A stretch of 64,000 nucleotides of DNA from the IMG/VR virus record IMGVR_UViG_3300024520_000049, positions 124,001-188,000 of that record; one strand, written 5' to 3'. The translations under genes were made by a program, and so were the position numbers. Source of the DNA: a virus. This document shows positions 16,017-50,647 of this stretch, piece after piece (the stretch's first letter is position 1; each line of letters starts with the position of its first letter). Under the pieces are notes generated by a model. It had not been told where the DNA came from. It saw only the letters and a list, made by a program, of their open reading frames with translations, and did no database searches.

Positions 16017-16593
16017 GTGCACCGAGGAGCTGTTTAACAAGGCTGTGGAAGCACACCAGATGATTGTTATCAGGGATGAAGGCCTTAGTCGACACCTCCG
16101 GTTTAAGAAGCCGGAAACAACCGACATGTACTTCGACCTCATTACTTGGCGTGGGCATCTTTGCTACACTGGGGACATGGGAACGTATGTGTTTACGCGT
16201 GTCGATGACATGTTCAAGTTCTTCAGAGGCGATCGCATCAATCCCGGCTACTGGGAAGAGAAGTGCATCGCCAGCCAAACCCGCATGAGAGGCAACGGGA
16301 TCAAGGCGTTTGATGTCGACACGTTCAATGACACAGTGCGTGAGTACATCAAGAATTACTGGGAACTGGATGTCGTCCCCGAGGACCTGCAGGCGGAGCT
16401 GGATCGTGAGGTACTTTGCCATCACGAGAATGAGTACGAGGCTTATCAAGCCGCGCACAACTTCAGCTTCAAAGAGTACAACTTCTACGACTGCGAAGGC
16501 CTCTGCGGGTGGATTTACACCTACCACTTCATCTGGTGCTTGCGGGCGTTGGTGTGGGGTATCAACCAGTACGACAAATCGAAGGAGGACTGA
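16006..16593 (+). CDS. conserved phage/prophage hypothetical protein, 195 aa
   Basis: The central FDLITWRGHLCYTGDMGTYVF and VDDMFKFFRG segment shapes (about residues 41-70) match a widespread phage and prophage family of unknown function. Starts inside the previous gene (ATG 16006) after GGAGGACGACG; ends in a TGATG overlap with the first mini-ORF. Confidence 0.75.
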   Translation: MKYECTEELFNKAVEAHQMIVIRDEGLSRHLRFKKPETTDMYFDLITWRGHLCYTGDMGTYVFTRVDDMFKFFRGDRINPGYWEEKCIASQTRMRGNGIKAFDVDTFNDTVREYIKNYWELDVVPEDLQAELDREVLCHHENEYEAYQAAHNFSFKEYNFYDCEGLCGWIYTYHFIWCLRALVWGINQYDKSKED

Positions 16594-16790
16594 TGCGGGG
16601 CGTATCATCTGCGCTTGCAGACAGGGACGGGGTGATGGCGGCAGTAATTCAAAATCACCCGAAACTCAACAAAATCCATGTGGCTGAATCCTACGCACAG
16701 CTTAGGCTCCAGCCGGATTTCACCTTCCGCATTATCATTGAGAGCATGGACCGACAACTGTTGGAGGATACTAATGCCGCGTCTGGGTAG
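16593..16790 (+). CDS. mini-ORF array member (cluster 1), 65 aa
   Basis: First member. Starts MRGVSSALAD, ends DRQLLEDTNAASG. GAAGGAGG at 16581-16588 lies in the codons of the preceding gene's last residues (KEED). The open frame back to 16509 is not used. Confidence 0.6.
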   Translation: MRGVSSALADRDGVMAAVIQNHPKLNKIHVAESYAQLRLQPDFTFRIIIESMDRQLLEDTNAASG

Positions 16791-17013
16791 GCCGGTCAAA
16801 GATGCTGCCTCTGCCCGGTGTTTATGCAGGAATCTCGGCAGTAGTAACGATAACCCGTTCCTTACCTCCAAGATTTGGCGCGGGTCCTGGTTCGGCCTTA
16901 AGCGCGCTATCATACGCGCCACCAATCCCGACTGGGCGCTGGACAACCAACTAGTGGAGGATTTTAGGGATGCGAAGACAGGTTCAGTGTTCCCTCAGAA
17001 CGGGCGCCGTTAA
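16774..17013 (+). CDS. mini-ORF array member (cluster 1), 79 aa
   Basis: ATG at 16774 follows TTGGAGGATACTA. The motif DNQLVEDFRDAK is followed by an extra 11 residues, as if the original stop had been lost; the next member starts inside this tail. Confidence 0.55.
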   Translation: MPRLGRPVKDAASARCLCRNLGSSNDNPFLTSKIWRGSWFGLKRAIIRATNPDWALDNQLVEDFRDAKTGSVFPQNGRR

Positions 17014-17218
17014 AAACGAAGTTATCTGGGAGGTGCGGGAGATGCTTGCCTCCAACATACAAGCGGCAATATGGCGTGGCGTGAGGGGAGGACGATACAA
17101 GGCCCAAAAGGTATGGAAGGAAATGGTGTACAATCCGTACACCGAAGCAGAATCTGAGTTGTGGCGACACGTCACAAGACCATTGATGGACGACATAAAA
17201 GAGGACTCTTATGAGTGA
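16970..17218 (+). CDS. mini-ORF array member (cluster 1), 82 aa
   Basis: Longer than average. Lys/Arg- and Trp-rich middle, ends LMDDIKEDSYE. GTGGAGGA in the previous member's VED codons is its ribosome site. Confidence 0.55.
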   Translation: MRRQVQCSLRTGAVKNEVIWEVREMLASNIQAAIWRGVRGGRYKAQKVWKEMVYNPYTEAESELWRHVTRPLMDDIKEDSYE

Positions 17219-17747
17219 AAAAGACGAAGTAGTTGAGAAGTTGAAGCAGTCACAGCTGCTGCCGGAAGTACTGGTAGTGCCAGAAGAGCACCGGGCGATG
17301 GTAGATGAGCTGGAGGAGAACCTCCACGTCAGCGCACTCGCAGTCAAGCTGGCGAACAAGGATCACTACCACCGTCACAATGATTTCTGGAACTATCTGC
17401 GTGAGCAGGTGTTTCCCGAGTCGACGATGACTACCACCACATACGTAGACGGCAAGGTCTTCCTCCGCCGACCAAGCTACGAGGAGCTCGAGCGGGAGGT
17501 GCGGCTGCTTAAGAAGATGTTTGTAAAGGATCAGAAGTATTCCTTAGCCGCAGAGATGCGTGATATGGAGAAGCTTGTGAGCGATGTGCAGGATCTGATC
17601 CAGACAGAGCCAGGGGTGCTCGTCGAGGCGCACCTCACGCTGAAGACCATGATTCAAGATGTGAGTCGTGAGATGGCGAAAAAGCACGGGTTTCAGTGGG
17701 ACGGGCCAGCCGGGGAGGAGCCTGGCGGTGGAGAGCAGCCGTCTTGA
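17211..17747 (+). CDS. coiled-coil protein with UVR-like motif, 178 aa
   Basis: Not an array member by length. Residues about 86-118 (YEELEREVRLLKKMF...YSLAAEMRDMEKL) resemble the UVR motif of UvrB/ClpATPase adaptors, a helical hairpin for protein binding. N-terminal 60 residues acidic and helical; C-terminus Gly/Glu-rich. Its start overlaps the preceding member by 8 bases. Confidence 0.65.
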   Translation: MSEKDEVVEKLKQSQLLPEVLVVPEEHRAMVDELEENLHVSALAVKLANKDHYHRHNDFWNYLREQVFPESTMTTTTYVDGKVFLRRPSYEELEREVRLLKKMFVKDQKYSLAAEMRDMEKLVSDVQDLIQTEPGVLVEAHLTLKTMIQDVSREMAKKHGFQWDGPAGEEPGGGEQPS

Positions 17748-17922
17748 GCTGCAGCTCCGTTCAAGGCCGTGGCTGAATGCCGAGCTGGCCTTGCCGGAGA
17801 ACGGACAAGCAAAGCGACTCCTGATGGAGGCGCATTTAGGAATGCAGCATCATCTGAGGACAGTGGTGCACCCGGTAGAAGATCAGATGACAGCTGAGCA
17901 CGGGCATGAGATCCTCGATTAG
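17728..17922 (+). CDS. mini-ORF array member (cluster 1, divergent), 64 aa
   Basis: GTG at 17728 after GGGGAGGAG. Leu-rich first half (SSRLELQLRSRPWLNAELAL), ends VEDQMTAEHGHEILD, where the VEDQ matches the motif seen before QLEED in cluster 4. Confidence 0.45.
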   Translation: MESSRLELQLRSRPWLNAELALPENGQAKRLLMEAHLGMQHHLRTVVHPVEDQMTAEHGHEILD

Positions 17923-17932
17923 GGAGAAAGAA

Positions 17933-18163
17933 ATGGCGAAGAAAAAGACGGTAGCGCGGCTCTCAGAGATTCCTCTGGGCGGCCTGTTTGTACACGTGGC
18001 ACCCTATATCAAAGTGTCCAAAACTATGGGCTTGCCGGTTATTGCCACAGGCCGAGACGATGCTGTGACTAAGCGGAAGTTCAAAGCTAATCAGGAGGTG
18101 GAGCTTCCGAAGGCGCTTAAGATCACCGGCAAGCAGGGCTCCATGGTAAATGTTCAGTGGTGA
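17933..18163 (+). CDS. small basic beta-rich protein, 76 aa
   Basis: MAKKKTVARLSEIPLGGLFV..., Lys-rich with alternating hydrophobics, ending KITGKQGSMVNVQW. Not of the array type. AGGGAGAAAG precedes the ATG at 17933; the open frame back to 17906 is not needed. Confidence 0.6.
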   Translation: MAKKKTVARLSEIPLGGLFVHVAPYIKVSKTMGLPVIATGRDDAVTKRKFKANQEVELPKALKITGKQGSMVNVQW

Positions 18164-18381
18164 GCGTCAAAGACCGATTTCCGGACAACACGACGTTGGC
18201 GGATTTCGTGGATGTACGGATTGCGCATGAAGCACTGGAGCAGCTCTCCCGCGCATATGCTCACCCAGAGGGGGGCCCATGGGGGGTCCCTCTTCACGTA
18301 GCAACACCCATAATGGAGCAGCTGGCCAATGAAACTTGTCGAGCGCAACTTATCTCGTACGTCGGACTCGGAGTTCAGTAG
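18160..18381 (+). CDS. mini-ORF array member (cluster 1), 73 aa
   Basis: GTG start overlapping the upstream TGA. Begins VSVKDRFPD, matching the MISVK start of cluster 5. The MEQLANE motif sits at residues 51-57 with an 18-residue read-on tail. Confidence 0.5.
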   Translation: MSVKDRFPDNTTLADFVDVRIAHEALEQLSRAYAHPEGGPWGVPLHVATPIMEQLANETCRAQLISYVGLGVQ

Positions 18382-18547
18382 TGCCCGCGACCTTTCATGG
18401 GACGCGGTTGTCGACGCGACCTCTGAGGCGGCCTGGGATCTGATGGGGGATTTGTATTATGCGGGCCACCCATCCTGGCCCAACGACCCAGTGATGTGGG
18501 TTCGCGAAGAGGTGGATCTAAACGTCTGGGACGACCATAACAATTAA
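18329..18547 (+). CDS. mini-ORF array member (cluster 1), 72 aa
   Basis: Starts MKLVERNL inside the tail of the previous member and ends LNVWDDHNN. Trp/Asp-rich second half. Confidence 0.5.
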   Translation: MKLVERNLSRTSDSEFSSARDLSWDAVVDATSEAAWDLMGDLYYAGHPSWPNDPVMWVREEVDLNVWDDHNN

Positions 18548-18557
18548 GGAGGCGCAA

Positions 18558-18749
18558 ATGCGCTTATGTAACAACATCGTAGACGTGCTGCACGATCTTT
18601 CACATGTGAGCGCCGGCCACACAATAACGGAGCTTTACGTGGATCATGACGCTTCCCAACCCGTCATGGCTTTGTGGGAGAGCGGGCTGATGCAGCTATC
18701 TGATGAGCTCATTACTACTACTCGGGACACGATTCGTGAGGCTCGGTAA
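18558..18749 (+). CDS. mini-ORF array member (cluster 1), 63 aa
   Basis: MRLCNNIVDVLHDL start, preceded by TAAGGAGGCG. Ends LSDELITTTRDTIREAR; the usual EED is not visible. Confidence 0.5.
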   Translation: MRLCNNIVDVLHDLSHVSAGHTITELYVDHDASQPVMALWESGLMQLSDELITTTRDTIREAR

Positions 18750-19480: not shown

Positions 19481-19583
19481 CCTGTATCTGGCTGTGCAGT
19501 CAGGTAAAGGCCTATACACCCAAAAAGCGCTGGCGCGGGCGACGCTTGTCCGTGCCGGCTTAATGCCAAAGGAGGAATCATGA
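19425..19583 (+). CDS. small basic protein, 52 aa
   Basis: GTG start after AGAGGAGGACGA inside the upstream gene. MPKKTTEPTTEELKLRLRDLYLAV... is a Lys/Arg-rich helical peptide; its KEES end encodes the GGAGG of the next gene and the stop overlaps as ATGA. Confidence 0.5.
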   Translation: MPKKTTEPTTEELKLRLRDLYLAVQSGKGLYTQKALARATLVRAGLMPKEES

Positions 19584-20536
19584 GACCTTGCGAACATTGC
19601 GGTGAGCCACTGGAGGAGGGGAGTCATACTAGCAAGAAGTGTCATAAAGAGTGCGCGCGGGAGAGGAAGAACGACCTTCGGCGTGCTAGACGTAGCGACC
19701 CAGAGAAGCGGGAGAGGGAGCTCGCCCGACGACGCATCGCCAACCTAACACCCGAGCAGCGGGAGAGGAAGAACGCCAGGCAACGCATCGCCAACATGAC
19801 CCCCGAGCAGCGGGAGAGGAAGAACGCTCATCATCGCGCCCGGCGCGCCAACCTCACCCCAGAGCAGAGGGAGAGCAAGAATGCCCTCACCCGTGTCGCC
19901 AATATGACACCAGAGCAGCGGGAGAGGACCCGTGTCGCCAACCTCACCCCAGAGCAGCTGGAGAAGAAGAGAGCCCACAACCGCGTCGCCAACATGACGC
20001 CAGAGCAGGTGGAGAAGAGGAACGCCCGCAAACGCATCGCCAACATGCCGCCAGAGCAGCGAGAGAGGAAGAACGCCCGCAAACGCATCGCCAACATGCC
20101 GCCAGAGCAGAGGGAGAGGACGAGGGCACGCGCCCGTGTCGCCAACATGACACCAGAGCAGCTGGAGAAGAAGAGAGCCCGCAACGCCAACCCAACCTCA
20201 GAGCAGCGGGAGAAGAAGAACGCCCGCGCCCGTGTCGCCAACATGACACCAGAGCAGCAGGAGAAGGAGAGAGCTCGTCGTCGGCAGCGCATCGCCAACC
20301 TCACCCCAGAGCAGCGAGAGAGGAAGAACGCCCTCACCCGCATCGCCAACATGACGCCAGAGCAGGTGGAGAAGAGGAACGCTAGCAAACGCGTCGCCAA
20401 CCGAACACCCGAGCAGCGGGAGAAGCAGAGGGCCAGCAACTGCAAATGCCGAGCTAACCGGCAACAAACAAACGAGTACTTTGAGATTCTTGGCCTCATT
20501 GAGGCTCTTCCAGACCTAATCAACGAAACAATATAA
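19580..20536 (+). CDS. TPEQ-repeat protein 1 with N-terminal zinc finger
   Basis: A 318-residue protein. MRPCEHCGEPLEEG...CHKEC (C-x2-C ... H-x3-C) is a zinc finger in the first 30 residues. Residues about 45-280 are 16-17-residue units of the form RIANMTPEQxExKNARx, about 15 copies, highly charged and helical. The last 30 residues (QQTNEYFEILGLIEALPDLINETI in parts) are a shared C-terminal cap. The repeats resemble TPEQR-type repeats seen in unrelated bacterial and eukaryotic proteins; function unknown. First of four tandem paralogues. Confidence 0.8.
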   Translation: MRPCEHCGEPLEEGSHTSKKCHKECARERKNDLRRARRSDPEKRERELARRRIANLTPEQRERKNARQRIANMTPEQRERKNAHHRARRANLTPEQRESKNALTRVANMTPEQRERTRVANLTPEQLEKKRAHNRVANMTPEQVEKRNARKRIANMPPEQRERKNARKRIANMPPEQRERTRARARVANMTPEQLEKKRARNANPTSEQREKKNARARVANMTPEQQEKERARRRQRIANLTPEQRERKNALTRIANMTPEQVEKRNASKRVANRTPEQREKQRASNCKCRANRQQTNEYFEILGLIEALPDLINETI

Positions 20537-20545
20537 GGAGGAATC

Positions 20546-21220
20546 ATGAGACCTTGTAAGCATTGCGGCGAGCCTCTGGAAGAGGGGAGCTGCCACCGGA
20601 CGAAGTATCATAAAGAGTGCGCGCGAGAGAGGAGGAGGGCCCGCTCCCGCATCGCCAACATGACACCAGAGCAGGTGGAGAAGAAGAGGGTCGGGAACCG
20701 CATCGCCAACTTCACCCCTGAGCAGCGGGAGAAGATCAACGCCCGCCGCCGGCGCGCCAATCTCACCCCAGAGCAGTGGGAGGCGGAGAATTCCAGGCAG
20801 GCCCGCAACCGCGCCAACATGACCCCAGAGCAGCGGGCGAAGCGGAACGCCTACCAACGCGGACGGCGAGCCAACCGCACACCAGAGCAGCGAGAGGAGT
20901 GGAACGCCTACAAACGCCAACACACCGCCAACCTCACCCCAGAGCAGCGGGAGAGCAAGAACGCCCGCTCCCGCATCGCCAACATGACACCAGAGCAGGT
21001 GGAGAAGCAGAGGGCCGGGAACCGCCGCGCCAATCTCACCCCAGAGCAGTGGGAGAAGCGGTTGGCCCCCCAACGCGTCGCCAACATGACACCAGAGCAG
21101 GTGGCGGAGAGGAGGGCCTGCCAAAGTGCCCGCCAACGCGAACAACAACAAACAAACGAATACTTCGAGATTCTTGGCCTCATTGAGGCCCTTCCAGATC
21201 TAATCAACGAAACAGTATAA
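20546..21220 (+). CDS. TPEQ-repeat protein 2 with N-terminal zinc finger
   Basis: A 224-residue paralogue with the same finger (CKHCGEPLEEGS ... YHKEC), about ten repeat units and the same C-terminal cap. Several units carry longer spacers (for example AYQRGRRANRTPEQ), so copy number and unit length both vary. TAAGGAGG precedes the ATG; the junction sequence is repeated at each paralogue. Confidence 0.8.
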   Translation: MRPCKHCGEPLEEGSCHRTKYHKECARERRRARSRIANMTPEQVEKKRVGNRIANFTPEQREKINARRRRANLTPEQWEAENSRQARNRANMTPEQRAKRNAYQRGRRANRTPEQREEWNAYKRQHTANLTPEQRESKNARSRIANMTPEQVEKQRAGNRRANLTPEQWEKRLAPQRVANMTPEQVAERRACQSARQREQQQTNEYFEILGLIEALPDLINETV

Positions 21221-21229
21221 GGAGGAATC

Positions 21230-21889
21230 ATGAGACCCTGTAAGCATTGCGGCGAGCCTTTGGAGGAGGGGCGTGGCTACCGCGCGCAATATCATAAGGA
21301 GTGTCAGCGCGAGAGGAGGAGCCGCCACCACCGCATCGCCAACCTCACCCCCGAGCAGCGGGAGAAGCGGAACGCTAAACAGCGCATTGCCAACATGACC
21401 CCAGATCAGGTGGAGAAGCAGAGGGCCTATGATCGCGGACGACGCCAAACCCGCACCCCAGAGCAGGTGGAGAAGGACAGAGACCGCTGCCGCATCGCCA
21501 ACATGACCCCAGAGCAGGTGGATAAGCGGAACACCCGCCACCGCGACAACATGACACCAGAGCAGCGGGAGAGGAAGAACGCCCGCTACCGCGTCGCCAA
21601 CCTCACCCCAGAGCAGCGGGAGAAGGAGAGAGCCCGCAAACGCATCGCCAACCTCACCCCAGAGCAGCTAGAGAAGAACAGAGCCCGCGCCCGTCGCGCC
21701 AACATGACCCCAGAGCAGGTGGAGAGGGTAAGGGCCCAGGCCCGTCGCGCCAACATGACCCCAGAGCAGGTGGAGAGGAGGAGAGCCTACGCCCAGGACC
21801 TCCGCCACGAACAGCAACAAACAAACGAGTACTTTGAGATTCTTGGCCTCATTGAGGCCCTTCCAGATCTAATCAACGAAACAGTATAA
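21230..21889 (+). CDS. TPEQ-repeat protein 3 with N-terminal zinc finger
   Basis: A 219-residue paralogue: finger CKHCGEPLEEGR ... YHKEC, about eleven units, same cap. The last two units are nearly identical (RARRANMTPEQVERVRA / RRANMTPEQVERRRA), a sign of recent unit duplication. Confidence 0.8.
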   Translation: MRPCKHCGEPLEEGRGYRAQYHKECQRERRSRHHRIANLTPEQREKRNAKQRIANMTPDQVEKQRAYDRGRRQTRTPEQVEKDRDRCRIANMTPEQVDKRNTRHRDNMTPEQRERKNARYRVANLTPEQREKERARKRIANLTPEQLEKNRARARRANMTPEQVERVRAQARRANMTPEQVERRRAYAQDLRHEQQQTNEYFEILGLIEALPDLINETV

Positions 21890-21898
21890 GGAGGAATC

Positions 21899-22093
21899 AT
21901 GAACCCAGAACAACGCAGAAAGATCAACATGCGGCAGCGCCGCGCTCATCTCATCAATCGCTGCAGCGATAGCGACCTCACCCCAGAACAACAAAAGGAG
22001 AAGAACGACCGTAAACACGCTCACCGCCTCGCCAACATGACCCCGTCGCACCTGGAGAGGATCAGAGCCTGGGATCGCCGCCACGGCCAATAG
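21899..22093 (+). CDS. truncated TPEQ-repeat paralogue, 64 aa
   Basis: Keeps the TAAGGAGGAATC-ATG junction and two or three degenerate units (DLTPEQQKEKN, NMTPSHLERI) but has lost both the zinc finger and the C-terminal cap. Either a decayed copy or a minimal version. Confidence 0.55.
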   Translation: MNPEQRRKINMRQRRAHLINRCSDSDLTPEQQKEKNDRKHAHRLANMTPSHLERIRAWDRRHGQ

Positions 22094-22161: not shown

Positions 22162-22866
22162 ATGACTATCTCCGCAGAAAACAACGAAGAAAACAACGAA
22201 CCCAAGCAGCAGAAAATCGAGCTGACAGACGAACAGTGCAAGAAGATCCTCGCCAGGGCCATCGCCCGTATGAAGGCAATGTCAGGCGACTGGAAATCCA
22301 TCTCCGAGGACTTTGTTGAGCTCATCGACGGCCGTACTGACGGTAGGGATTACATCCGCAGCCGCCTCCCCGGCCTTTCGCTACATAGCCTAAACCTCTT
22401 TGAGAAGGTAGGTCGAGGAAGCTTGGACCCCCGCCTCGGCCCCAGCGCGATGATCCACAAGCCCCACATGCTGCGGAACCTCTCAATCGCTGACCAGCTT
22501 AAGACTCTTGACGAGAAGCTGTCTCTTGCGATACTCGGCGTCGATCCCGGCAACTTCCGGCTGGTGCGCTGGTCAGATGAGCTTTCGTTAAGCCAACGCA
22601 AGCAGCTGGTAAGCCACTCGGCGCTCCGGACGGTAGCAGAGCAGATCCTGTACCTGGAGGCTCTCCGCACCAACCGCCGCTTGAAGAGCGCAGACAAAGA
22701 GACAGCTGATTATTTCGTGAAGCCTAACGGCGTCGTGGTCTTCACAACGAAGAAAGAGGAGCATGAATGGGAACCAGAGGACCTGCTGCAGCTGGCGACT
22801 AACGCCGTGAAGCGTGCCAGGGAGTGGGACAACAAGAGGAAGGGCAAAGGTACGTCAAAGCCGTGA
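22162..22866 (+). CDS. hypothetical helical protein, 234 aa
   Basis: Unrecognised, polar N-terminus (about 15 residues), then mainly helical. AAGGAA precedes the ATG. Its end overlaps GTG 22863 of the next array member. Confidence 0.65.
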   Translation: MTISAENNEENNEPKQQKIELTDEQCKKILARAIARMKAMSGDWKSISEDFVELIDGRTDGRDYIRSRLPGLSLHSLNLFEKVGRGSLDPRLGPSAMIHKPHMLRNLSIADQLKTLDEKLSLAILGVDPGNFRLVRWSDELSLSQRKQLVSHSALRTVAEQILYLEALRTNRRLKSADKETADYFVKPNGVVVFTTKKEEHEWEPEDLLQLATNAVKRAREWDNKRKGKGTSKP

Positions 22867-23042
22867 AGCTCGGCTCAGTGAGGGTCATCGTATACCTCAA
22901 CCCGTTCGCTACCGTGAAGAGTCAAGTGTTCAAACAGCCTTGGGAGAAGGCGAACTACACTCTTCGGCAGCTGAACGTGGGTGTGAGGAACGTACGGAAT
23001 CACGTCCACGCCGAAGTGTACAGGGCGCGGGCGGGCATATGA
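22863..23042 (+). CDS. mini-ORF array member (cluster 2), 59 aa
   Basis: GTG start giving MKLGSVRVIVYL; the open frame upstream to 22824 overlaps a real gene. QLNVGVRNVRNHVHAEVYRARAGI end lacks the EED motif. Confidence 0.5.
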   Translation: MKLGSVRVIVYLNPFATVKSQVFKQPWEKANYTLRQLNVGVRNVRNHVHAEVYRARAGI

Positions 23043-23227
23043 AATCCGTTAAACAAATCATAAAGCACAACAGACTAGGCGTGGCCCATAAGGTACTGTA
23101 CGGCTCAGGCAAGTACACACAGGTCCGTGGGCGCATGCTGCTAGGGCAGCCATTGGGCATGTTTGGCCGCATGCTCATGCTTGTAGACCACCAAATAGAA
23201 GAAGACCTAGGAGGAAGGAGAAGATGA
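23039..23227 (+). CDS. mini-ORF array member (cluster 2), 62 aa
   Basis: MKSVKQIIKHNRL start, DHQIEEDLGGRRR end. The GGAGGAAGGAG coding for the last residues is the ribosome site of the next ORF. Confidence 0.6.
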   Translation: MKSVKQIIKHNRLGVAHKVLYGSGKYTQVRGRMLLGQPLGMFGRMLMLVDHQIEEDLGGRRR

Positions 23228-23343
23228 AGATCAAGAAGGCACAACCCCGCGTCTGGGGTGTGCTTACGGACGCGGGTGGCAGAACGCCTGCGACAAGCGA
23301 CAACAAGAACCACACGAGTAAGGAAGAAGACGAAAATGACTGA
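23224..23343 (+). CDS. short mini-ORF, 39 aa
   Basis: MKIKKAQPRVWGVL start like the array but only 39 codons, ending SKEEDEND. Its GAAGAAGACGAAA leads directly into the DUF6745 start, so it may act mainly as a leader ORF. Confidence 0.45.
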   Translation: MKIKKAQPRVWGVLTDAGGRTPATSDNKNHTSKEEDEND

Positions 23344-24457
23344 TGCTATAAATGACCAAATGTCCGATGATCTTGGCGGCGCCAAACCATCGACTACACC
23401 AAACGCGCTGGCTGACGCTGCGGCAAAGCCTACCAAAGCAAAAAATAAGAAGATCGAATCGTTGACGCCTGAGCAGGAGGCGGCGATACCTGAGTTCCGT
23501 GATCGCTGGATTGCGATTGGACTGCAGACTCGCAAGTACGACAAGACCATGGTGCCAGAGCTGATGGCTCGCATCTACAAAGAGGGCGGGCTCGAGCCGC
23601 CCCAGCACATCCTGCATCTGACGTCACCAATGGCGGCCAATGCGCTCATCAACCTGCTGCAGGACAACGAAGACCACCCCATGAAAGAGGCCGATGTCTC
23701 TTTGACCACGGTTGAAGGCTACGGCGCCGACGGGGCCACCTCGTTCGACATTCGCTCAATGACAGTTGACGATAAGACGCCGGACCTGCGGGCACTGTGC
23801 AAGGACAAAACCCTGGACACAGTACACAATGGGGCTGCCTGCTACGGTGCTCACGACGCGGCCTGGCTGGGCTTCTACGAGTTCTGGATGGAGGCCGGCA
23901 TTGAGGAATGCAAGCAGCTGCTTCCGCTCATGGACGCGGCCAAAGCCGCTGTGGGCTGGTTCTACCCGTTCGAGGAGGCTTGTATCGTCACACCGCTGCC
24001 TACTGAGCTGCACCGTGATGATGAAGGTCGCTTGCACAACACAGAAGGTGCTGCTCTGATCTTTGATGATGGCTGGGGCGTATGGAGCGTCAACGGCGTG
24101 CGTGTGCCGCGCAAGATCATCGAAGAGAAGGACAAGATCACTGCTCAGGACATCCTCGATGAGGAGAATGCAGAGATCCGCCGTGTTATGATGGAGTTCC
24201 TCGGCACAGAGAAGTTCATCCAGGAGTCTGGTGCCCGCTTGGTGCACAAGGACGATTGGGGGGAGCTCTACGAGAAGGAGCTTGAGGACGACGAACCTCT
24301 CTGTATGGTGAAGGTGGTGAACAGCACACCTGAGCCAGACGGGCATTATAAGGATTACTGGATTCGGGTACGTCCGGGGTGTGAGACGGCACATGACGCT
24401 GTTGCCTCTACCTTCCACCGGACGGCTGAAACCTACGATCCTTCCGTAGAAACCTGA
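23336..24457 (+). CDS. DUF6745 family protein
   Basis: A 373-residue protein. The first 45 residues are low-complexity (Ala/Lys). LTPEQEAAIPEFRDRWIAIGL (about 42-62) and the C-terminal half, with GVRVP, EIRRVMMEFLG, ELEDDEPLCMVKVVN, TPEPDG, YWIRVRPGCETAHDAVA, match DUF6745 as I recall it; function unknown. In many DUF6745 proteins the region before the YGxHDAxWLxFYxF motif (here about 180-192) carries QV-D-type tetrapeptide repeats. They are absent here, while similar repeats occur as separate array ORFs. Starts 8 bases inside the preceding mini-ORF. Confidence 0.75.
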   Translation: MTDAINDQMSDDLGGAKPSTTPNALADAAAKPTKAKNKKIESLTPEQEAAIPEFRDRWIAIGLQTRKYDKTMVPELMARIYKEGGLEPPQHILHLTSPMAANALINLLQDNEDHPMKEADVSLTTVEGYGADGATSFDIRSMTVDDKTPDLRALCKDKTLDTVHNGAACYGAHDAAWLGFYEFWMEAGIEECKQLLPLMDAAKAAVGWFYPFEEACIVTPLPTELHRDDEGRLHNTEGAALIFDDGWGVWSVNGVRVPRKIIEEKDKITAQDILDEENAEIRRVMMEFLGTEKFIQESGARLVHKDDWGELYEKELEDDEPLCMVKVVNSTPEPDGHYKDYWIRVRPGCETAHDAVASTFHRTAETYDPSVET

Positions 24458-24517: not shown

Positions 24518-24745
24518 ATGCAGTTAATTCGACGAAGAGTAGAAGTGAAGGAGCGTGCCATCCAGAGATCGTCGGCCAGGATCTCAGAGGAGCATGTGTA
24601 TAAGGATTCGACCTGCGACGTCTTGCGGGCGTACCATATAAAACTTTACGAGGCGCTACACGCGGAAGCTCCAGCGCAGGCAGTTGATCCAAGATCTTCT
24701 GCGACTGTGCTCCAACTGTCCGACCAATTACAGGACGATGCATGA
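24518..24745 (+). CDS. mini-ORF array member (cluster 2), 75 aa
   Basis: Opens the uninterrupted 27-ORF stretch. MQLIRRRVEVKERAIQ start, SDQLQDDA end, ATGA overlap. GGAG at 24509-24512. Confidence 0.6.
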   Translation: MQLIRRRVEVKERAIQRSSARISEEHVYKDSTCDVLRAYHIKLYEALHAEAPAQAVDPRSSATVLQLSDQLQDDA

Positions 24746-24918
24746 AGAACGCTGTTATACATGCAGTGGTTATCACCCCAGGCGGGAGATCAGCCACGAT
24801 TATTGTGAGCCACCACGACCAATTCTGGGTGGGGCATGCGCAGAGACGAGAGCAGGAACGACAACTACTGGAGGCGCAATCTTATGAGGTTAAAGCAGCA
24901 AGTCACGCCCAAGGTTAA
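24742..24918 (+). CDS. mini-ORF array member with read-on tail, 58 aa
   Basis: MKNAVIHAVVITPGG start. The end motif RQLLEA is followed by 13 extra residues because the expected stop is missing; CTGGAGGCG in the motif still serves the next ATG. Confidence 0.55.
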   Translation: MKNAVIHAVVITPGGRSATIIVSHHDQFWVGHAQRREQERQLLEAQSYEVKAASHAQG

Positions 24919-25060
24919 CCAGCGAATGTACGCCAGCGACCTGGCGATCAATGGACTTTTTACACTGGAACTGTGGTCGAATCTCATTCACCCCGACCGC
25001 CATCGCGAGGCGATACATGAGGAACTATACGATGAAGCTCGGACCGACAATGAAGTATGA
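24884..25060 (+). CDS. mini-ORF array member (cluster 2), 58 aa
   Basis: MRLKQQVTPKVNQRMYAS start. HEELYDEARTDNEV end reads 28 bases into the next member. Confidence 0.55.
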   Translation: MRLKQQVTPKVNQRMYASDLAINGLFTLELWSNLIHPDRHREAIHEELYDEARTDNEV

Positions 25061-25307
25061 GGTGTATCGGCAGGTCCAGGAAGGAGCCGCTGTCTGCGCA
25101 CCCCCAGACCTGTTGTCTGGAGGACCGCACCCAGCCACGATGCGCCCCGGCGCTGTCTCAAGATATCTCCACCCGATCGCCAATCATGCCCATGAAATTG
25201 CGCACCAGCTGGGCGCGGAGCTATGGGACGGGGAGGTGCTGTTACGAGGTTGGGGCCGACTCGCCGAGACCACATCAAGGCAACTACCCGCCAGGGCTAC
25301 GATTTAA
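25032..25307 (+). CDS. mini-ORF array member, elongated, 91 aa
   Basis: MKLGPTMKYEVYRQVQEGAA start. The motif region AHQLGAELWDGE lies at residues 55-66 and the frame then continues 25 codons over the next member. Confidence 0.5.
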   Translation: MKLGPTMKYEVYRQVQEGAAVCAPPDLLSGGPHPATMRPGAVSRYLHPIANHAHEIAHQLGAELWDGEVLLRGWGRLAETTSRQLPARATI

Positions 25308-25456
25308 TCCCACGCACCAACAACGGTCACATTCACAGCATGCCGATCGGCAGCGTGGAGCTGATGGCGCAGGGACAGATTGACGGGATGATCTATGAGA
25401 TAGAGGACAAACTGCAGGAAGACGTAACAGGGAGGAGGGCAAATCTATGGCGATGA
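25223..25456 (+). CDS. mini-ORF array member with decayed start, 77 aa
   Basis: The family start RLGPT appears at 25247 preceded by ACG (25244) instead of ATG, 6 bases after GGGGAGGTG. The in-frame ATG at 25223 may have taken over. Ends EDKLQEDVTGRRANLWR. Confidence 0.45.
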   Translation: MGRGGAVTRLGPTRRDHIKATTRQGYDLIPRTNNGHIHSMPIGSVELMAQGQIDGMIYEIEDKLQEDVTGRRANLWR

Positions 25457-25674
25457 GATTAGGATACACGAGTGAGCGCGGCCGTATACAAGAGGATCCC
25501 CGCCACCGCGTCTCGATGGCGTGCCACCAGGCGGATAGGCGTCTACTTAATGGTGCCTCTTTGGCGCCCCTCTTCTCCATACTGCTGCAGGATGTGCGGG
25601 ATGCTGCTAGAGATCAGCTGCTTATCGATGTCGCGCCAAAGCCCAGGGACTGGAACGGGCAGGTGCTCCTGTGA
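25447..25674 (+). CDS. mini-ORF array member (cluster 2), 75 aa
   Basis: GGGAGGAGG at 25430-25438 favours ATG 25447 (MAMRLGYTSERG); ATG 25453 is possible. DQLLIDVAPKPRDWNGQVLL end, GTGA overlap with the next. Confidence 0.5.
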   Translation: MAMRLGYTSERGRIQEDPRHRVSMACHQADRRLLNGASLAPLFSILLQDVRDAARDQLLIDVAPKPRDWNGQVLL

Positions 25675-25856
25675 AGTTGGGAGAGTCCGCAGGGAAGACA
25701 ATAACGCAGCTGTGCTTTGACTCGCCCGCCAGCAACGCCGTCATCATGCACGATGCTGCCACGGTGGATAGGTGGAGAAGGTTGGCATTCCCAGCACCAC
25801 TGTTCCACCCAATCACAAATAGCCAAAGCGGCCAACTAGAGGAGGACGCCAAATGA
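25671..25856 (+). CDS. mini-ORF array member (cluster 2), 61 aa
   Basis: GTG start, MKLGESAGKTITQLCF; classic SGQLEEDAK end whose codons contain GAGGAGGAC. Confidence 0.6.
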   Translation: MKLGESAGKTITQLCFDSPASNAVIMHDAATVDRWRRLAFPAPLFHPITNSQSGQLEEDAK

Positions 25857-26041
25857 AGATAGAGACAGACAAGTTTATACGTCAGCGCCTCCGCCTCTAT
25901 GCGGAGTTGCGCAAGAACGTGATAGCGCCGTATGGCTTTGCGGTGTTCAACGAGGTCGCTACCGAGTTCGGCGCTTTCCGCACCCCAGGTACACAACCAT
26001 TAAGACAATTGCTCCACCAGCTAGTTTGGGAGGGTATGTAA
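25853..26041 (+). CDS. mini-ORF array member (cluster 2), 62 aa
   Basis: MKIETDKFIRQRLRLY start; HQLVWEGM end, with GGGAGGG as the following ribosome site and a TAATG junction. Confidence 0.55.
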   Translation: MKIETDKFIRQRLRLYAELRKNVIAPYGFAVFNEVATEFGAFRTPGTQPLRQLLHQLVWEGM

Positions 26042-26226
26042 TGAGATTAACCTGCCCACAGAAGGGCCTGATCGATCGCAACCTTAAGGACCATATTTTC
26101 AGCGGGATAATAATAGGGGCGGGGCCGCTGTTCACGAGGAAAACGAACCCGCAGCGATTCTTCGATTCAACGGGCGGCCGTCACGTAGGGGACGTTATCG
26201 CTACCGAGATCCGCCGCCGAAACTAA
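26041..26226 (+). CDS. mini-ORF array member, divergent, 61 aa
   Basis: MRLTCPQKGLIDRNL start, Arg-rich end VIATEIRRRN without the motif. A 13-base gap follows, one of few breaks in the chain. Confidence 0.5.
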   Translation: MRLTCPQKGLIDRNLKDHIFSGIIIGAGPLFTRKTNPQRFFDSTGGRHVGDVIATEIRRRN

Positions 26227-26239: not shown

Positions 26240-26413
26240 ATGCAAATCAAGGCTGTGCCCACCTCGGAGCTCCGCAACCGCTCACTGCGCGCCGAGGATT
26301 ATCTACACGCAGCAAAGCGTGCGAAGATGGGGCGGTACATTGCTCGGCTGGAGGCGCAAAGAGATAACATAAACAAGAAGCGGCGATCGATTTTCGACTG
26401 CTGCTGGAGGTGA
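26240..26413 (+). CDS. mini-ORF array member, divergent, 57 aa
   Basis: MQIKAVPTSELRNRS start after AAGGA. Very basic helix, ends IFDCCWR; the TGGAGG coding for CWR is the next ribosome site, in a different frame from EED members. Confidence 0.5.
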   Translation: MQIKAVPTSELRNRSLRAEDYLHAAKRAKMGRYIARLEAQRDNINKKRRSIFDCCWR

Positions 26414-26416: not shown

Positions 26417-26596
26417 GTGAAGGTTAGCCATATGGATATGTGCCAGCACGAGGTGCGGGACTGTAAGATGATAGCCGCCCACACAGCTATTAGAGCCGCG
26501 CGCCCAAGCCAGTACAGCCGAGAGCTTCTGCTGGTTCGGGATGACCTTCACCCCCAGCTTAATGCGGTAATGGACCAAATCGAGGAGGACGCATGA
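26417..26596 (+). CDS. mini-ORF array member (cluster 2), 59 aa
   Basis: GTG start, MKVSHMDMCQHEVRD; VMDQIEEDA end with GAGGAGGACGC-ATGA junction. Confidence 0.6.
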   Translation: MKVSHMDMCQHEVRDCKMIAAHTAIRAARPSQYSRELLLVRDDLHPQLNAVMDQIEEDA

Positions 26597-30269: not shown

Positions 30270-30306
30270 GGGCCAGCAACCATTCTTCAGGTTGCTGGCC
30301 CTTTTT
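30270..30306 (+). terminator. rho-independent terminator
   Basis: GGGCCAGCAACC (30270-30281) pairs perfectly with GGTTGCTGGCCC (30290-30301), followed by TTTTT. Confidence 0.9.
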
Positions 30307-40054: not shown

Positions 40055-40333
40055 ATGGCTGACCGAGCAGAGTACCCGCAGCACGATAAGCTGCATGAAG
40101 TGAAGGAACGCTCTCAGACCATCGGGGAGTTCATGGAGTGGCTTGGTGCAGAGAAGAAGCTCTGCCTGGCCACCTGGGCGAACGATAACTGGATGTTGCC
40201 AGCGCCCTACGATATCCAGGATCTCTTGGCGGAGTTCTTTGAGATCGACCGTAATGCGCTTGAGGCCGAGAAGCTGCACATGCTGGAGGCGCAGCGTGCG
40301 TTAAATGCGCGAGCGGCAGAGCAAACAGCATGA
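40055..40333 (+). CDS. conserved phage-type protein (YPxxDKLxxV...SQTIGEFMEWL), 92 aa
   Basis: EYPQHDKLHEVKERSQTIGEFMEWL and LLAEFFEIDRNALEAEKLHMLE match a small helical protein family widespread in phages, function unknown. Its end overlaps cluster 5 as ATGA. Confidence 0.75.
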   Translation: MADRAEYPQHDKLHEVKERSQTIGEFMEWLGAEKKLCLATWANDNWMLPAPYDIQDLLAEFFEIDRNALEAEKLHMLEAQRALNARAAEQTA

Positions 40334-40518
40334 CTAGCGTTAAGGCCCTTTTGCGGGAGCAGGTGCGGGCTCAGATATGGGGGCGGGTTCGGGATCAGGT
40401 GCGAACCACGCCGCGACATCAAACAGGGGAACAGGTAGGGGATCGGGCAAAGCTCCCAGTATGGGATCAAGTGGGGGAACAGGTAGGGGATCAGCTATGG
40501 GGTGAAGAGCGTGGTTAG
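40330..40518 (+). CDS. mini-ORF array member (cluster 5), 62 aa
   Basis: MTSVKALLREQVRAQIW start, then QVRDQVR and DQVGEQVGDQLW tetrads; ends LWGEERG. Confidence 0.65.
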   Translation: MTSVKALLREQVRAQIWGRVRDQVRTTPRHQTGEQVGDRAKLPVWDQVGEQVGDQLWGEERG

Positions 40519-40705
40519 CGTTAAGGAGCAGGATCAGGTAGGGGCTCAGGTATGGGGTCAGGTACGGGGTCAGGTATGGGATCAGGTAGAGGAGCAGGTA
40601 TCGGATCAGGCATCGAGACCGGTATCGGCTCAGATTTACAGGCAGGTACAGGATCGGGCGTGGGATCAGCTATGGGATCAGCTATGGGAGGATGTAGATG
40701 ATTAG
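40511..40705 (+). CDS. mini-ORF array member (cluster 5), 64 aa
   Basis: GTG in GTGGTTAG gives VVSVKEQDQVGAQVW (GTG 40502 possible). Almost entirely QV-x-(D/E/G) tetrads; ends DQLWDQLWEDVDD. Confidence 0.65.
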   Translation: MVSVKEQDQVGAQVWGQVRGQVWDQVEEQVSDQASRPVSAQIYRQVQDRAWDQLWDQLWEDVDD

Positions 40706-40886
40706 TGTCAAGGAGCAGGCGCAGGATCAGGTATGGAGCGGGCCGCGCCATAAGGTCGCGACCAAATTGAAGCTCCCGGCAGGCGTCCGCCTCGATATGC
40801 ACGATTGGTGGTGGGCGTCTATGACCCGTGAGTGGCGCCCGGGACACATACGGGACCAGCTGCACAGCGACGTGCAGTGTGATTAG
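40698..40886 (+). CDS. mini-ORF array member (cluster 5), 62 aa
   Basis: MISVKEQAQDQVW start, then a non-repetitive Trp-rich middle; RDQLHSDVQCD end. Confidence 0.6.
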   Translation: MISVKEQAQDQVWSGPRHKVATKLKLPAGVRLDMHDWWWASMTREWRPGHIRDQLHSDVQCD

Positions 40887-41073
40887 CGTGCAGAAGCAGG
40901 CGCGCCCGAAGCTGCTGGAGCGTGCTAGCCACGCCCAGCTCGAGGCCAATTACTGGATCTCCAATGATGTTTGGTGCCGCGGCTCCATTCAGATATATGA
41001 TCTGGTGTGGCAGGCGACGGGGAGACCTATACGAGTCCCTATCCAGGAGGAATTAAGAGATGATCAGCGTTAA
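40879..41073 (+). CDS. mini-ORF array member (cluster 5), 64 aa
   Basis: GTG in GTGATTAG gives VISVQKQARPKLLER; IQEELRDDQR end with CAGGAGGAATT. Confidence 0.6.
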   Translation: MISVQKQARPKLLERASHAQLEANYWISNDVWCRGSIQIYDLVWQATGRPIRVPIQEELRDDQR

Positions 41074-41266
41074 GAAGCGGGTGCGGGATCAGGTGGAAAC
41101 CCACCCCCGCGCGGCTGTGGAGCAAATTCCGGCGTACACAGAGGTGGTAGTGCACAACCACTTACGCACTACCGTATATCTTAGCGTAATGGATCGGGTG
41201 TGGTTACTCACATGGGACCAGCTGTATCATGATGGGAGGCAACAACAGGAGGACTTCAATGATTAG
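41060..41266 (+). CDS. mini-ORF array member (cluster 5), 68 aa
   Basis: MISVKKRVRDQVETHPRAAV start, TWDQLYHDGRQQQEDFND end. Confidence 0.65.
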   Translation: MISVKKRVRDQVETHPRAAVEQIPAYTEVVVHNHLRTTVYLSVMDRVWLLTWDQLYHDGRQQQEDFND

Positions 41267-41435
41267 CGTTAAACAGCAGGTACGAGATCAGGCATGGGAT
41301 CAGGCAGGAGGTCAGTTAGAGAGTCAGTTAGAGAGTCAGTTAGAGAGTCAGGTACGGAGTCAGATATGGAATCAGGTATGGGCTCAGGTATGGGATCTGG
41401 TACGGATTCAGGTATGGGAGGACTTCAATGATTAG
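41259..41435 (+). CDS. mini-ORF array member (cluster 5), 58 aa
   Basis: ATGATTAG start after AGGAGGACTTCA. MISVKQQVRDQAWDQ, then three identical QLES tetrads, QVW units and VWEDFND end. The most regular tetrad repeat of all. Confidence 0.65.
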   Translation: MISVKQQVRDQAWDQAGGQLESQLESQLESQVRSQIWNQVWAQVWDLVRIQVWEDFND

Positions 41436-41669
41436 CGCCAAACAGCAGTTATGGAGCGAAGCGCTCGAGACTGGGTGCTAGTTCATCCAGAGTTGCAGAT
41501 ACGGGCGCGGACACAAAACCAAATAGAGAACCGAGTTTGGGCTAAGGTGTGGGAGCAAGTACGGGATCAGACATGGGATCAGCTGTGGGATTTACGGGCG
41601 CACGCGTGGGATCAACTAGAGGAGGATGTAAATGAAATGGGCACGAGAGACACGAGGCCATCAATATGA
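41428..41669 (+). pseudogene. frameshifted mini-ORF array member
   Basis: The family start ATGATTAGCGCCAAACAGCAG (MISAKQQ) at 41428 hits a stop at 41479. The body of a member (ARDWVLVHPELQ ... DQLEEDVNEM) continues in another frame, open from ATG 41451 to 41669. Body and start align to 41060 (VRDQVETHP), so one indel separates them. The 41451 ORF may still be translated. Confidence 0.6.
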
Positions 41670-41673
41670 CTAA
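41632..41673 (+). repeat. partial copy of the start of gene 41845
   Basis: ATGAAATGGGCACGAGAGACA at 41632 nearly repeats the start of gene 41845 (ATGAAATGGACACGAGAGACA), but the frame stops after 13 codons. It is a leftover of a duplication of the junction between array and next gene. Confidence 0.65.
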
Positions 41674-41848
41674 CGTCAGTGTACGGGCAACGGTCAAGCC
41701 AGAGGGCGGGGCAGAGGCTCAGCTGTTTTGGCAGGTAAGCTATCGGGTAAGGGCTCAGGTGTCGAGACAGTTGTGGCATCGGGTAGAGGATCAACTAGTA
41801 CAAGTGGACCGCCCAATGTGGCTCCTACTACGGGAGGATAACACATGA
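41666..41848 (+). CDS. mini-ORF array member, last of cluster 5, 60 aa
   Basis: MTNVSVRATVKPEGGAEAQL start as in 33290; RVEDQLVQVDRPMWLLLREDNT end, ATGA overlap with gene 41845. Confidence 0.6.
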   Translation: MTNVSVRATVKPEGGAEAQLFWQVSYRVRAQVSRQLWHRVEDQLVQVDRPMWLLLREDNT

Positions 41849-42672: not shown

Positions 42673-42673
42673 G

Positions 42674-48834: not shown

Positions 48835-48848
48835 CAAAGGAGGGGGCG

Positions 48849-49037
48849 ATGATACTTATGGAGCGTCCGGCCGCCATGGCCATTTACCGACCCTTTCGTG
48901 ATCTGTACGATGTGGCCCACCACCCGCTGATGCCCAAAGCGGTCGCGCTACGGCGGCGGATAACGGAGAAGACTTCGATGGGTGTTCGTGTTGAGCTGCA
49001 AGCTCAAATCGCAGAGGACTCATTTTTCCGCCCCTGA
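48849..49037 (+). CDS. isolated mini-ORF array member, 62 aa
   Basis: MILMERPAAMAIYRP start, VRVELQAQIAEDSFFRP end; AAAGGAGGGGG upstream. It stands alone, 7 kb from cluster 5, before a terminator. Confidence 0.55.
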   Translation: MILMERPAAMAIYRPFRDLYDVAHHPLMPKAVALRRRITEKTSMGVRVELQAQIAEDSFFRP

Positions 49038-49119: not shown

Positions 49120-49136
49120 AACTCAAGGAGAAACAC

Positions 49137-49223: not shown

Positions 49224-49612
49224 TCGACTGGATACCCGTCGACGAGAAGCTGCCCTGCGTGGGGGAGTTCTACCCACCAGATGGCAGTGCCGGCACACCG
49301 CAGCCAGGCCAGATGGACAGCGAGGACCTGATCCTCACGAACTGTATAGAGATATGGGTCGGCCACTTGACTTACGACCAGGTGCTTGGCGCCGCCGCGA
49401 AATGCTGGCATTGGCGTATCAACGGCCTCGCCCACGGCAGCGATACGCTCGAGATGCAGGAAGTCACACATTGGGCGCGGGGTGAAGGCCAAGTACCCTG
49501 CCCATGGTGCCACCAGAGCTGGCACCCTCTGGACACGCACGTATGCCTCTGCAGGAAGTGCGGAGAGCCACTAGAAAACACCCAACGAATAGGGAAACAC
49601 CTATGCATATAG
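49220..49612 (+). CDS. DUF551-like protein with zinc knuckles, 130 aa
   Basis: MIDWIPVDEKLPCVG start, LILTNCIEIWVG and EVTHWARG match the short DUF551 domain common in phages (WIxVxxxLP ... VTHWMP). A C-terminal CPWCHQSWHP...HVCLCRKCGEP adds zinc knuckles. Confidence 0.65.
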   Translation: MIDWIPVDEKLPCVGEFYPPDGSAGTPQPGQMDSEDLILTNCIEIWVGHLTYDQVLGAAAKCWHWRINGLAHGSDTLEMQEVTHWARGEGQVPCPWCHQSWHPLDTHVCLCRKCGEPLENTQRIGKHLCI

Positions 49613-49974
49613 GGCCAGACGACCTGAAGATGTTCCAGCCCATCCCAGAGGACCCGATGGTGGCGTACCTGATGCACAAGGACGACGCTGTCAAACTCAG
49701 GTACGCCAGCAAGATCGACCAGCTCAGGGGACGGATGCAGCAACTGACCGAGAAGTGCGGAGAGCTAAAAGAAGAGCTTCGTCGCCGGCCGCTGCCAACG
49801 CGCTTTACTCTGCTGAAGCGCACTGACGCTGTGGCTGTGGCACATGACACAGGTGACGGCTGGTCCCTGGAGTGGGAAGACCTGGAAGGCGAAACCGAAG
49901 AGATACCCTGGCCCTTTGGCGAGCACCTCGTGACGTGCGAGGACTTGCGGAAGGTGGGTTTCACGATTGTATGA
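49603..49974 (+). CDS. hypothetical protein, 123 aa
   Basis: Coiled-coil middle (SKIDQLRGRMQQLTEKCGELKEELRR), beta-rich end. Unrecognised. Confidence 0.6.
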   Translation: MHIGPDDLKMFQPIPEDPMVAYLMHKDDAVKLRYASKIDQLRGRMQQLTEKCGELKEELRRRPLPTRFTLLKRTDAVAVAHDTGDGWSLEWEDLEGETEEIPWPFGEHLVTCEDLRKVGFTIV

Positions 49975-49989
49975 ATGAGGAGGACTTCA

Positions 49990-50157
49990 ATGATTAGCGT
50001 TAAGCGTCAGGTATGGGATCAGATATGGGATCAGATATGGGAGCAGGTAGAGGCTCAAATATCGGCTCAGGTATCGGATCAGGTATCGGATCAGGTAGAG
50101 GGTCCGGTAGAGAATCAGCTAGCTGATCAGGTACGGGGGGATGTAGATGAACAATAA
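49990..50157 (+). CDS. isolated cluster-5-type mini-ORF, 55 aa
   Basis: MISVKRQVWDQIWDQIWEQV start and QISAQVSDQVSDQVEG tetrads, ending DQVRGDVDEQ. Its leader GAGGAGGACTTCAATGATTAG matches those at 41246 and 41413, so it is a displaced copy of a cluster 5 unit. The in-frame ATG at 49975 is part of the copied leader. Confidence 0.65.
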   Translation: MISVKRQVWDQIWDQIWEQVEAQISAQVSDQVSDQVEGPVENQLADQVRGDVDEQ

Positions 50158-50171
50158 CGAAAGGACGAATT

Positions 50172-50453
50172 ATGATTGAAGACGACGGACTTAACTATTT
50201 AGACTCAGCCGTACATGGGCTGGGTAAGGTGAAGCCTCCAGCAGGGAGGATCACCGAGTGGTGGTTCTGGGTTGTGATATGTAACACTGCGCAGAGAAAG
50301 ACGTTCAAGACACAGGAGCAGGCCAAAGCGCGCCACGCTGAGTTTGCCCAGGCGCAGATGCGCGCCGAGCACCCGCTCCACTCCGTCACGGTCCAGCAGG
50401 ACATCGTGGACGGCATCAATGGTATCATGAACCTCACGGTGCTGCCAGACTGA
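50172..50453 (+). CDS. hypothetical protein, 93 aa
   Basis: MIEDDGLNYLDSAVHGLG..., WWFWVVICN core and KTFKTQEQAKARHAEF helix. Unrecognised; ribosome site weak (AAAGGACG). Confidence 0.55.
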   Translation: MIEDDGLNYLDSAVHGLGKVKPPAGRITEWWFWVVICNTAQRKTFKTQEQAKARHAEFAQAQMRAEHPLHSVTVQQDIVDGINGIMNLTVLPD

Positions 50454-50647
50454 TGCTGCTTTCGGTGCAGCGTCAAGTCAATCATCTACCCTGCAAGGAA
50501 GCCGAGCGGCACCTGTACGAATACTGGCGAGGCTCCACTTGCTTCACGTGGTGGGATTCTGTGTACGAGGCTGTGGACGATGAGGTAGCGGACGTCCTCG
50601 TTGAGGAGCTGAACGACGTTCTGTCAAGCGGCCGCCTGGACACTTAA
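50453..50647 (+). CDS. divergent mini-ORF array member, 64 aa
   Basis: MLLSVQRQVNHLPCKE start, VEELNDVLSSGRLDT end. Last array-like ORF of the window. Confidence 0.5.
   Translation: MLLSVQRQVNHLPCKEAERHLYEYWRGSTCFTWWDSVYEAVDDEVADVLVEELNDVLSSGRLDT

Follow-up and report, generated by a model that had tools for sequence, protein, structure and literature searches.

The window analysed here was a 64,000-nt stretch spanning bases 124001-188000 of the 190.5-kb virus record IMGVR_UViG_3300024520_000049, in which approximately 61 short open reading frames (mini-ORFs; 39-86 codons) on the plus strand lie in chains, the main one surrounding a DUF6745 (PF20530) gene and ending at a PHROG27831 gene. The source is a large tailed phage, because its terminase shares 28-29% identity with those of Salmonella phage Arash and Vibrio phage D181 and because it encodes an RNA polymerase protein of 2198 amino acids (L002, 9226-15822; record base 9226 on), a Rpb2/Rpb1-type fusion in which a LAGLIDADG domain and intein-like segments occur. 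No mini-genes were found in the remaining 126 kb of the record. The sequences show that most members derive from a Q-[V/L]-X-X repeat encoded by units of 12 nt, and we regard the identity of this family and its DUF6745/PHROG27831 module as highly probable. The initial annotation of the window had proposed approximately 60 chained mini-ORFs forming one hypervariable family; the number and the chaining were borne out by our count, by overlapping junctions and by codon scores favouring the annotated frames, while the tetrapeptide (tetrad) repeat, the ribosome-binding sites within gene ends and the DUF6745/PHROG27831 module had not been part of it.

The repeat is plainest in the clear members at 32.9-34.9, 40.3-41.8 and 49.99 kb, which consist of Q-[V/I/L]-X-X four-residue units in 12-nt repeats (consensus CAGGTATGGGAT). 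Ten window members were matched by a hidden Markov model (HMM) built from other phages, at E values of 4e-13 to 1e-4. The group at 32.9 kb begins with a clear tetrad-type gene at 32934-33128 (MTSVKYEV..EQLEEDA; external-phage HMM, 1.3e-4) and continues with 33115-33297 (ending EDQLKEDHDD; HMM), the clear tetrad-type 33290-33490 (8-nt junctions; HMM among the evidence), and 33483-33683 and 33676-33876, clear tetrad-type duplicates of each other by alignment and HMM. The short gene at 33869-33997 is by alignment a paralogue of the outlying 34668-34895 (HMM, 2.9e-6). At 40.3-41.8 kb, tetrad genes at 40330-40518 and 41259-41435 (both by repeats and HMM) and 40511-40705 (GTG start; QVWD-type 12-nt repeats) stand beside the tetrad-type 41666-41848 (HMM) and degenerate members at 40698-40886 (tetrads; MISVKEQAQDQVW), 40879-41073 (GTG start) and 41060-41266 (tetrads), for all three of which HMM matches were among the evidence. 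In the tetrad gene at 41428-41669, the frame that begins with the ATG at 41428 ends prematurely, and the tetrads are held by another frame, open from 41451; either a frameshift or a sequencing error is responsible. An isolated tetrad gene lies at 49990-50157 (repeats and HMM).

The main chain starts with a candidate gene at 22863-23042 (GTG start; HMM 7e-4 for the ORF 22824-23042), followed by 23039-23227 (ending HQIEEDLGGRRR) and a short gene of 39 amino acids at 23224-23343. Eight nucleotides before the end of the latter, at 23336, begins the DUF6745 gene (23336-24457; 373 amino acids, without tetrads), which matched Pfam at E = 3.1e-60 (203.4 bits against a curated cut-off of 27). The chain resumes with 24518-24745 (ending SDQLQDDA), 24742-24918 (4-nt overlap), 24884-25060, 25223-25456 (start uncertain), 25447-25674, 25671-25856 (GTG start, ending GQLEEDAK), 25853-26041, 26041-26226, 26240-26413, 26417-26596 (GTG start, ending DQIEEDA; a paralogue of 26759), 26593-26769 and the degenerate 26759-26956. 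Profiles built on clear members and on other phages picked up this last gene (E = 5.4e-4, 3.4e-4 and 1.2e-3), including an HMM from other phages only (1e-3). Next come 26946-27206 (GTG start), the paralogues 27161-27361 and 27358-27582, 27579-27767, 27764-27961 (ending REQLKEDT), 27958-28161, 28158-28388, 28385-28576, the paralogues 28573-28788 and 28785-29000, 28997-29197, 29236-29388, 29379-29579 (GTG start) and 29576-29791. The PHROG27831 gene (QGDV...GETTGHHH...; 29910-30251; PHROG, E = 4e-13) then closes the chain, together with an intrinsic-terminator-like hairpin that has a 12-bp stem and a T-rich tail (30270-30301). A further cluster comprises 30589-30792 (ending EDQIEEDICN), 30783-30962, 30959-31135 and its paralogue 31505-31681, 31132-31323, 31320-31508 (ending ADQLREDV), 31678-31902, 31899-32096 (ending LQLEEDV) and, as its last gene, 32093-32302. 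HMM matches were among the evidence for the genes starting at 24518, 25223, 27764, 28997, 29236, 31132 and 31678. Duplicate pairs had been proposed at three places: 33483/33676 and 27161/27358 were confirmed by alignment scores of 185 and 78, respectively, no shuffled comparison exceeding 48, and 28573/28785 proved to be a weaker duplicate.

The chains have a translational-coupling layout. A 4-nt overlap (ATGA) occurred at 23 junctions, where MKL-type starts prevail. Nine others overlap by 8 nt (e.g. ATGATTAA), mostly with MIS/MIN/MTN-type starts after ...DD; at the 8-nt junctions, the terminal DD and the initial MI are read largely off the shared bases. For most members, the Shine-Dalgarno sequence sits within the 3' end of the preceding gene, where it is supplied by the EED codons (GAGGAGGAC). 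The DQLEED-type ends noticed in the initial annotation are thus present but, because the EED codons double as a Shine-Dalgarno sequence, they are in part a DNA-level constraint, namely the site at which ribosomes bind for the following gene. The D-Q-[LIV] part is free of such a constraint, since the 24 members that have the motif encode Q by CAA (19) or CAG (5) and the residue after it by many codons. The mini-gene frames look coding: the best codon score fell in the annotated frame for 28 of the 36 mini-genes at 23.0-32.3 kb (12 expected), whose GC content by codon position (0.61/0.43/0.64) was like that of the phage's other genes.

The other 46 mini-genes can barely be aligned. Taken together, however, V/I/L recur in them at lags of 4, 8 and 12 residues (z = 7.9, 4.6 and 3.5), and the corresponding values for V/I/L/M were 5.9, 3.3 and 3.4; nothing comparable was seen for V/I/L/M in long genes of this phage and out-of-frame translations, with maxima of 3.25, 2.73 and 2.59 in 60 control sets. 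The degenerate mini-genes at 24.5-32.3 kb gave collective z values of 5.2, 3.2 and 2.7 at the same lags, most being below significance singly. An HMM of the clear members recognised 16 of the 46 at E < 0.5 as compared to 3 of 449 control ORFs, two of these three being unlisted chain ORFs, and profile searches revealed HMM cross-recognition between the window mini-genes and the members in other phages. By period-4 hydrophobicity and the clear-member HMM, the single-family claim held for the members at 22.9-34.9, 40.3-41.8 and 49.99 kb. The cluster at 16.6-19.0 kb as a whole is at most a putative part of the tetrad family: four of its members showed no period-4 signal and its sole HMM match was a weak one to the ORF ending at 17218; it contains the weak possible member 17042-17218 (HMM E = 0.006 for the ORF 16970-17218), the possible member 16593-16790 (ending RQLLED) and three putative ones at 18157-18749 (18157-18381, 18329-18547 and 18558-18749). 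The outliers 48849-49037 (ending AQIAED) and 50453-50647 (SVQRQV start; HMM E = 0.22) are likewise weak possible members. Scans of the mini-genes with Pfam, PHROG, NCBIfam and PADLOC gave no convincing match. DUF4816 matches in three of them (best 3e-4) were set aside, as was PDB entry 23fj_R (an ARID protein with GQMP repeats; E = 5e-12), a compositional match with a differing unit.

L numbers designate individual loci. Of the IMG/VR contigs retrieved with one tetrad mini-gene as the query, nearly all encoded DUF6745. In most other tetrad-bearing phages (L010, L011, L015, L018-L024 and L029-L031) the gene is fused, with ca. 19-35 counted tetrads between an N-terminal part and the DUF6745 domain. 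In the split form, found in L012, L016, L057 and the source window, DUF6745 lacks tetrads and is followed by separate mini-genes. Stand-alone chains with pure members occurred in L028 (GC 33%), L041, L045 and L025. Those of L028 also include degenerate members with a still stronger period (z = 9.0, 5.5 and 4.3 at lags 4, 8 and 12), and within the chain of L041 lies a gene resembling DUF6745 that scored under the curated cut-off. A DUF6745-PHROG27831 fusion suspected by eye in L041 (HPEHN...REVDHV end) gave no PHROG27831 match and is not claimed. The PHROG27831 gene adjoins DUF6745 in most loci, in prophiGD102-1, and in Ma-LMM01 and its relatives. Gene 38 of prophiGD102-1 (DUF6745, PF20530) carries QL tetrads inside the protein, whereas in the source window the tetrads lie outside DUF6745 in dozens of mini-genes; Ma-LMM01 gp174 is a PF20530 protein like the window ORF 23336-24457. 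The tetrads of unrelated phages use the same residue alphabet with other codons. The caps flanking the repeats are phage-specific (MNIE..EDL, MISVK..REET, MRPYEIN..EDVK and MKKRK..IKYYEET), as would be expected if a founder gene had been amplified locally. Scans of bacterial genome contigs found no bacterial relatives, and no near relative of the window PHROG27831 gene was found among viral contigs by its own sequence patterns. In a literature search of partial coverage, no paper named DUF6745 or contained the searched tetrad sequences; the mini-gene array is real, recurrent and, as far as that search reaches, undescribed.

Three further loci are of interest beside this module. In the Microcystis phage Ma-LMM01 (L081, 3980-5511), gp175 and gp174 are PHROG27831 and a tetrad-free DUF6745 protein encoded side by side, with DNA polymerase, exonuclease, uracil-DNA glycosylase and clamp-loader genes as neighbours; this cultured phage is a potential experimental system. 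The DUF6745 protein of MW202476 (L049, 4362-5639) has SSL[G/E/W/R] tetrads, in which S replaces Q and the X3 alphabet G/E/W/R is retained. In L018 (5659-6450), a gene for a pentapeptide-repeat (ADLSGADLRG) protein lies directly upstream of the fused DUF6745-tetrad gene.

Selection within the repeat was evaluated using codon-level spanning trees of the units of 20 arrays. The Q and L positions showed 27 synonymous steps against 12.4 expected under neutrality, indicating purifying selection. At the third position of the unit (X3), only 11 of 96 steps were synonymous against 23 expected (P = 0.0015), with a ratio of nonsynonymous to synonymous change (pN/pS) of ca. 2.4, and the fourth (X4) was near neutral (12 against 14.1; pN/pS ca. 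1.2, not significant). Positions 1 and 2 of the repeat are constrained, and position 3 is diversifying. Among the duplicates in the window, the ratio of nonsynonymous to synonymous substitution rates (dN/dS), approximate since the protein-guided pairwise alignments contain few codons, was 0.20-0.62 for old pairs and 0.7-2.2 for young tetrad pairs. Whole arrays also turn over: L016 and L057, whose DUF6745 proteins are 82% identical, have arrays differing in caps and numbers, and L045 and L047 share ca. 10.4 kb without a mismatch, differing within the tetrad array only (L047 1-210 against L045 9630-9842), where an assembly error is possible because the L047 array lies at a contig edge. These results, together with the chains found in L012, L016, L057, L041 and L028, support the expansion and rapid divergence first proposed for the window; in the 12-nt units, two residues are conserved and one has excess amino-acid changes.

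Neutral repeat drift, or a gene nursery, would explain the arrays as functionless mini-ORFs made by 12-nt slippage and tandem duplication, whose frames are kept open by coupling alone. The slippage-prone units, the low mutual similarity of most members, the frameshifted member and the coupled layout with Shine-Dalgarno sequences inside preceding genes all fit this explanation. However, plain neutral drift is disfavoured because the dN/dS of old pairs is 0.2-0.6 and not 1. In a simple simulation of neutral decay, the Q-Q and hydrophobic periods were lost together, whereas the real mini-genes keep the hydrophobic period only. The constrained Q and L with a diversifying X3, the single residue alphabet reached through different codons in unrelated phages and the constant association with DUF6745 also argue against drift, which we judge to be unlikely.

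AlphaFold predicted a pure mini-protein to be one continuous helix (pLDDT, the predicted local distance difference test score, of 91) and the fused array to form low-confidence helices beside a well-predicted DUF6745 domain. In the explanation that we prefer, the array consists of detached, multiplied and diversifying tetrapeptide-repeat modules of the DUF6745/PHROG27831 module and likely serves counter-defence; taken as a whole, this statement has in our estimation slightly less than an even chance of being right. Each mini-protein would form one long helix that carries a stripe of hydrophobic residues and has a variable face. New mini-genes would originate when repeats slip or genes are duplicated, and would then diverge, and the phage would make many of the proteins at once. 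In the split form, they would substitute for the built-in tetrad arm and work with DUF6745 in trans. They may bind partners in the cell that vary, with defence systems as the likeliest, in the way that repeat changes tune Tweety gp54, and the variable host targets suggested in the initial annotation are plausible on this analogy. For the mini-proteins together with DUF6745, a counter-defence function as such is a tentative proposal.

The mycobacteriophage protein Tweety gp54 has tetrapeptide repeats, the number of which tunes its counter-defence activity against defences encoded by prophages (PMC9262239, PMC8549241). In this protein, as well as in Che8 gp57 and PMC gp51, the unit is 12 nt long, third codon positions are invariant and the repeat number differs between phages; in gp54, two fixed residues are followed by X3 (G/W/Q) and X4 (S/Y), and unique N- and C-terminal parts flank the repeats (PMC2884959). 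The tetrad arrays are alike in the 12-nt tetrapeptide unit, the variable X3 and X4 and the near-invariant third codon positions, by analogy only, whereas gp54 has an AA scaffold instead of Q-L/V and is a single gene instead of an array of stand-alone mini-genes. Its N- and C-terminal parts show no homology, gp54 matching PHROG3416 and neither the PF20530 nor the DUF6745 profiles. It is the closest known protein and, since it is not a homologue, the likeness speaks only to the mode of working and not to membership. The Bordetella phage BPP-1 gene bbp36 (VR2), a non-essential early gene with a short-repeat variable region (PMC2884959), was set aside as a relative, being one gene with an eight-residue GTATAGYR repeat and no QL tetrads.

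Several observations weigh against the counter-defence explanation and its foundations. When 14 residues were trimmed from each end of the degenerate mini-proteins, the V/I/L/M z values became 2.3, 2.8 and 3.4, so that the lag-4 signal resides partly in the shared ends. AlphaFold readily draws repetitive sequence as a single helix. Foldseek found no PDB match for the DUF6745 model, leaving it without a counterpart among solved folds, and in BFVD it matched DUF6745 and uncultured phage proteins only. The nearest terminase relatives, whose records are incomplete, show neither DUF6745 nor mini-genes. The counter-defence analogue itself is non-homologous, lacking DUF6745 and having AA where the arrays have QL. 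Finally, the DUF6745/PHROG27831 pair of Ma-LMM01 sits among replication genes, which makes a role in replication possible. In such a role, the tetrads would be rod-like oligomerisation or spacer helices in a complex of DUF6745 with PHROG27831 that works in the DNA metabolism of the phage, selected for length and not for target binding, with the mini-proteins as extra rods. The predicted long helix accords with this, as do the RepA and ERF genes near the pair in prophiGD102-1 and the ERF-like ORF (by eye) beside it in L010 and L018. Such rods would need neither the excess amino-acid change at X3 nor the total replacement of arrays between sister phages, and a structural or replication role seems improbable to us, to about the same degree as drift.

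A decoy or buffer array, in which many small acidic-tailed proteins non-specifically titrate a host protease, nuclease or toxin, is very improbable: the number of proteins and the simultaneous expression implied by the chain would suit it, but the conserved Q/L scaffold, the DUF6745 association and one-position diversification would be unneeded for non-specific titration, and this suggestion of the initial annotation found no specific support. Targeted mutagenesis of the kind performed by diversity-generating retroelements would account for third codon positions that are often invariant within an array while the first and second vary, as seen in many arrays, and is hardly credible because 14 records, the full 190-kb record of the source phage among them, yielded no reverse transcriptase (PF00078).

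If the counter-defence explanation is carried further, the arrays may be a standing repertoire, in which a constant DUF6745 and PHROG27831 effector is paired with dozens of separately encoded and co-translated helical modules, some of them always matching the current host defences. Slippage of the 12-nt unit would give rise to the modules, one or two positions in each unit would diversify, and the set would be retained as a library. We consider this extension somewhat unlikely; if true, it would mean that phages possess a hitherto undescribed counter-defence system that is combinatorial and antibody-like. Should the Tweety analogy hold, phages would in general tune their counter-defence by repeat slippage, and the arms race would have both its records and its reservoirs in mini-gene arrays. 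The array form also has a considerable likelihood of being a system in its own right. Strings of many small early ORFs that may act on the host are present in the SPO1 host-takeover module and in anti-CRISPR loci; to our knowledge, these small genes are not known as one repeat-derived family. Tetrapeptide-repeat variable phage proteins are already known, and the stand-alone mini-gene array is what is new as far as the literature search reaches. DUF6745, PHROG27831 and the hypervariable mini-gene arrays are three undescribed things joined in one recurrent phage module. A single genome appears to display gene birth from a 12-nt repeat, with every stage from pure repeat to unrecognisable protein, and the findings offer a concrete hypothesis for many ORFan strings of large phages, namely that they are decayed simple-repeat copies selected for an amphipathic period.

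Adjoining the mini-gene chain, at 19580-22093, lie three tandem paralogues (318, 224 and 219 amino acids) and a short remnant. They have ca. 17-residue IANMTPEQ(V/R)EK.. repeats, a CxxC-type N-terminus (MRPCKHCGEPLEEG) and a common C-terminus (QTNEYFEILGLIEALPDLINET), and constitute a second gene family driven by repeats beside the chain. Downstream of the array region, large genes at 52686-61547 resemble by eye those for glycosyltransferases, a sulfotransferase and methyltransferases. Rfam placed a tRNA at 10356-10494 (36.2 bits), the 139-nt span of which implies an insertion of ca. 68 nt, and ARAGORN found none. The source phage also encodes a Tubulin/FtsZ-family protein (PF00091, 3.5e-12; L006, 10646-11827).

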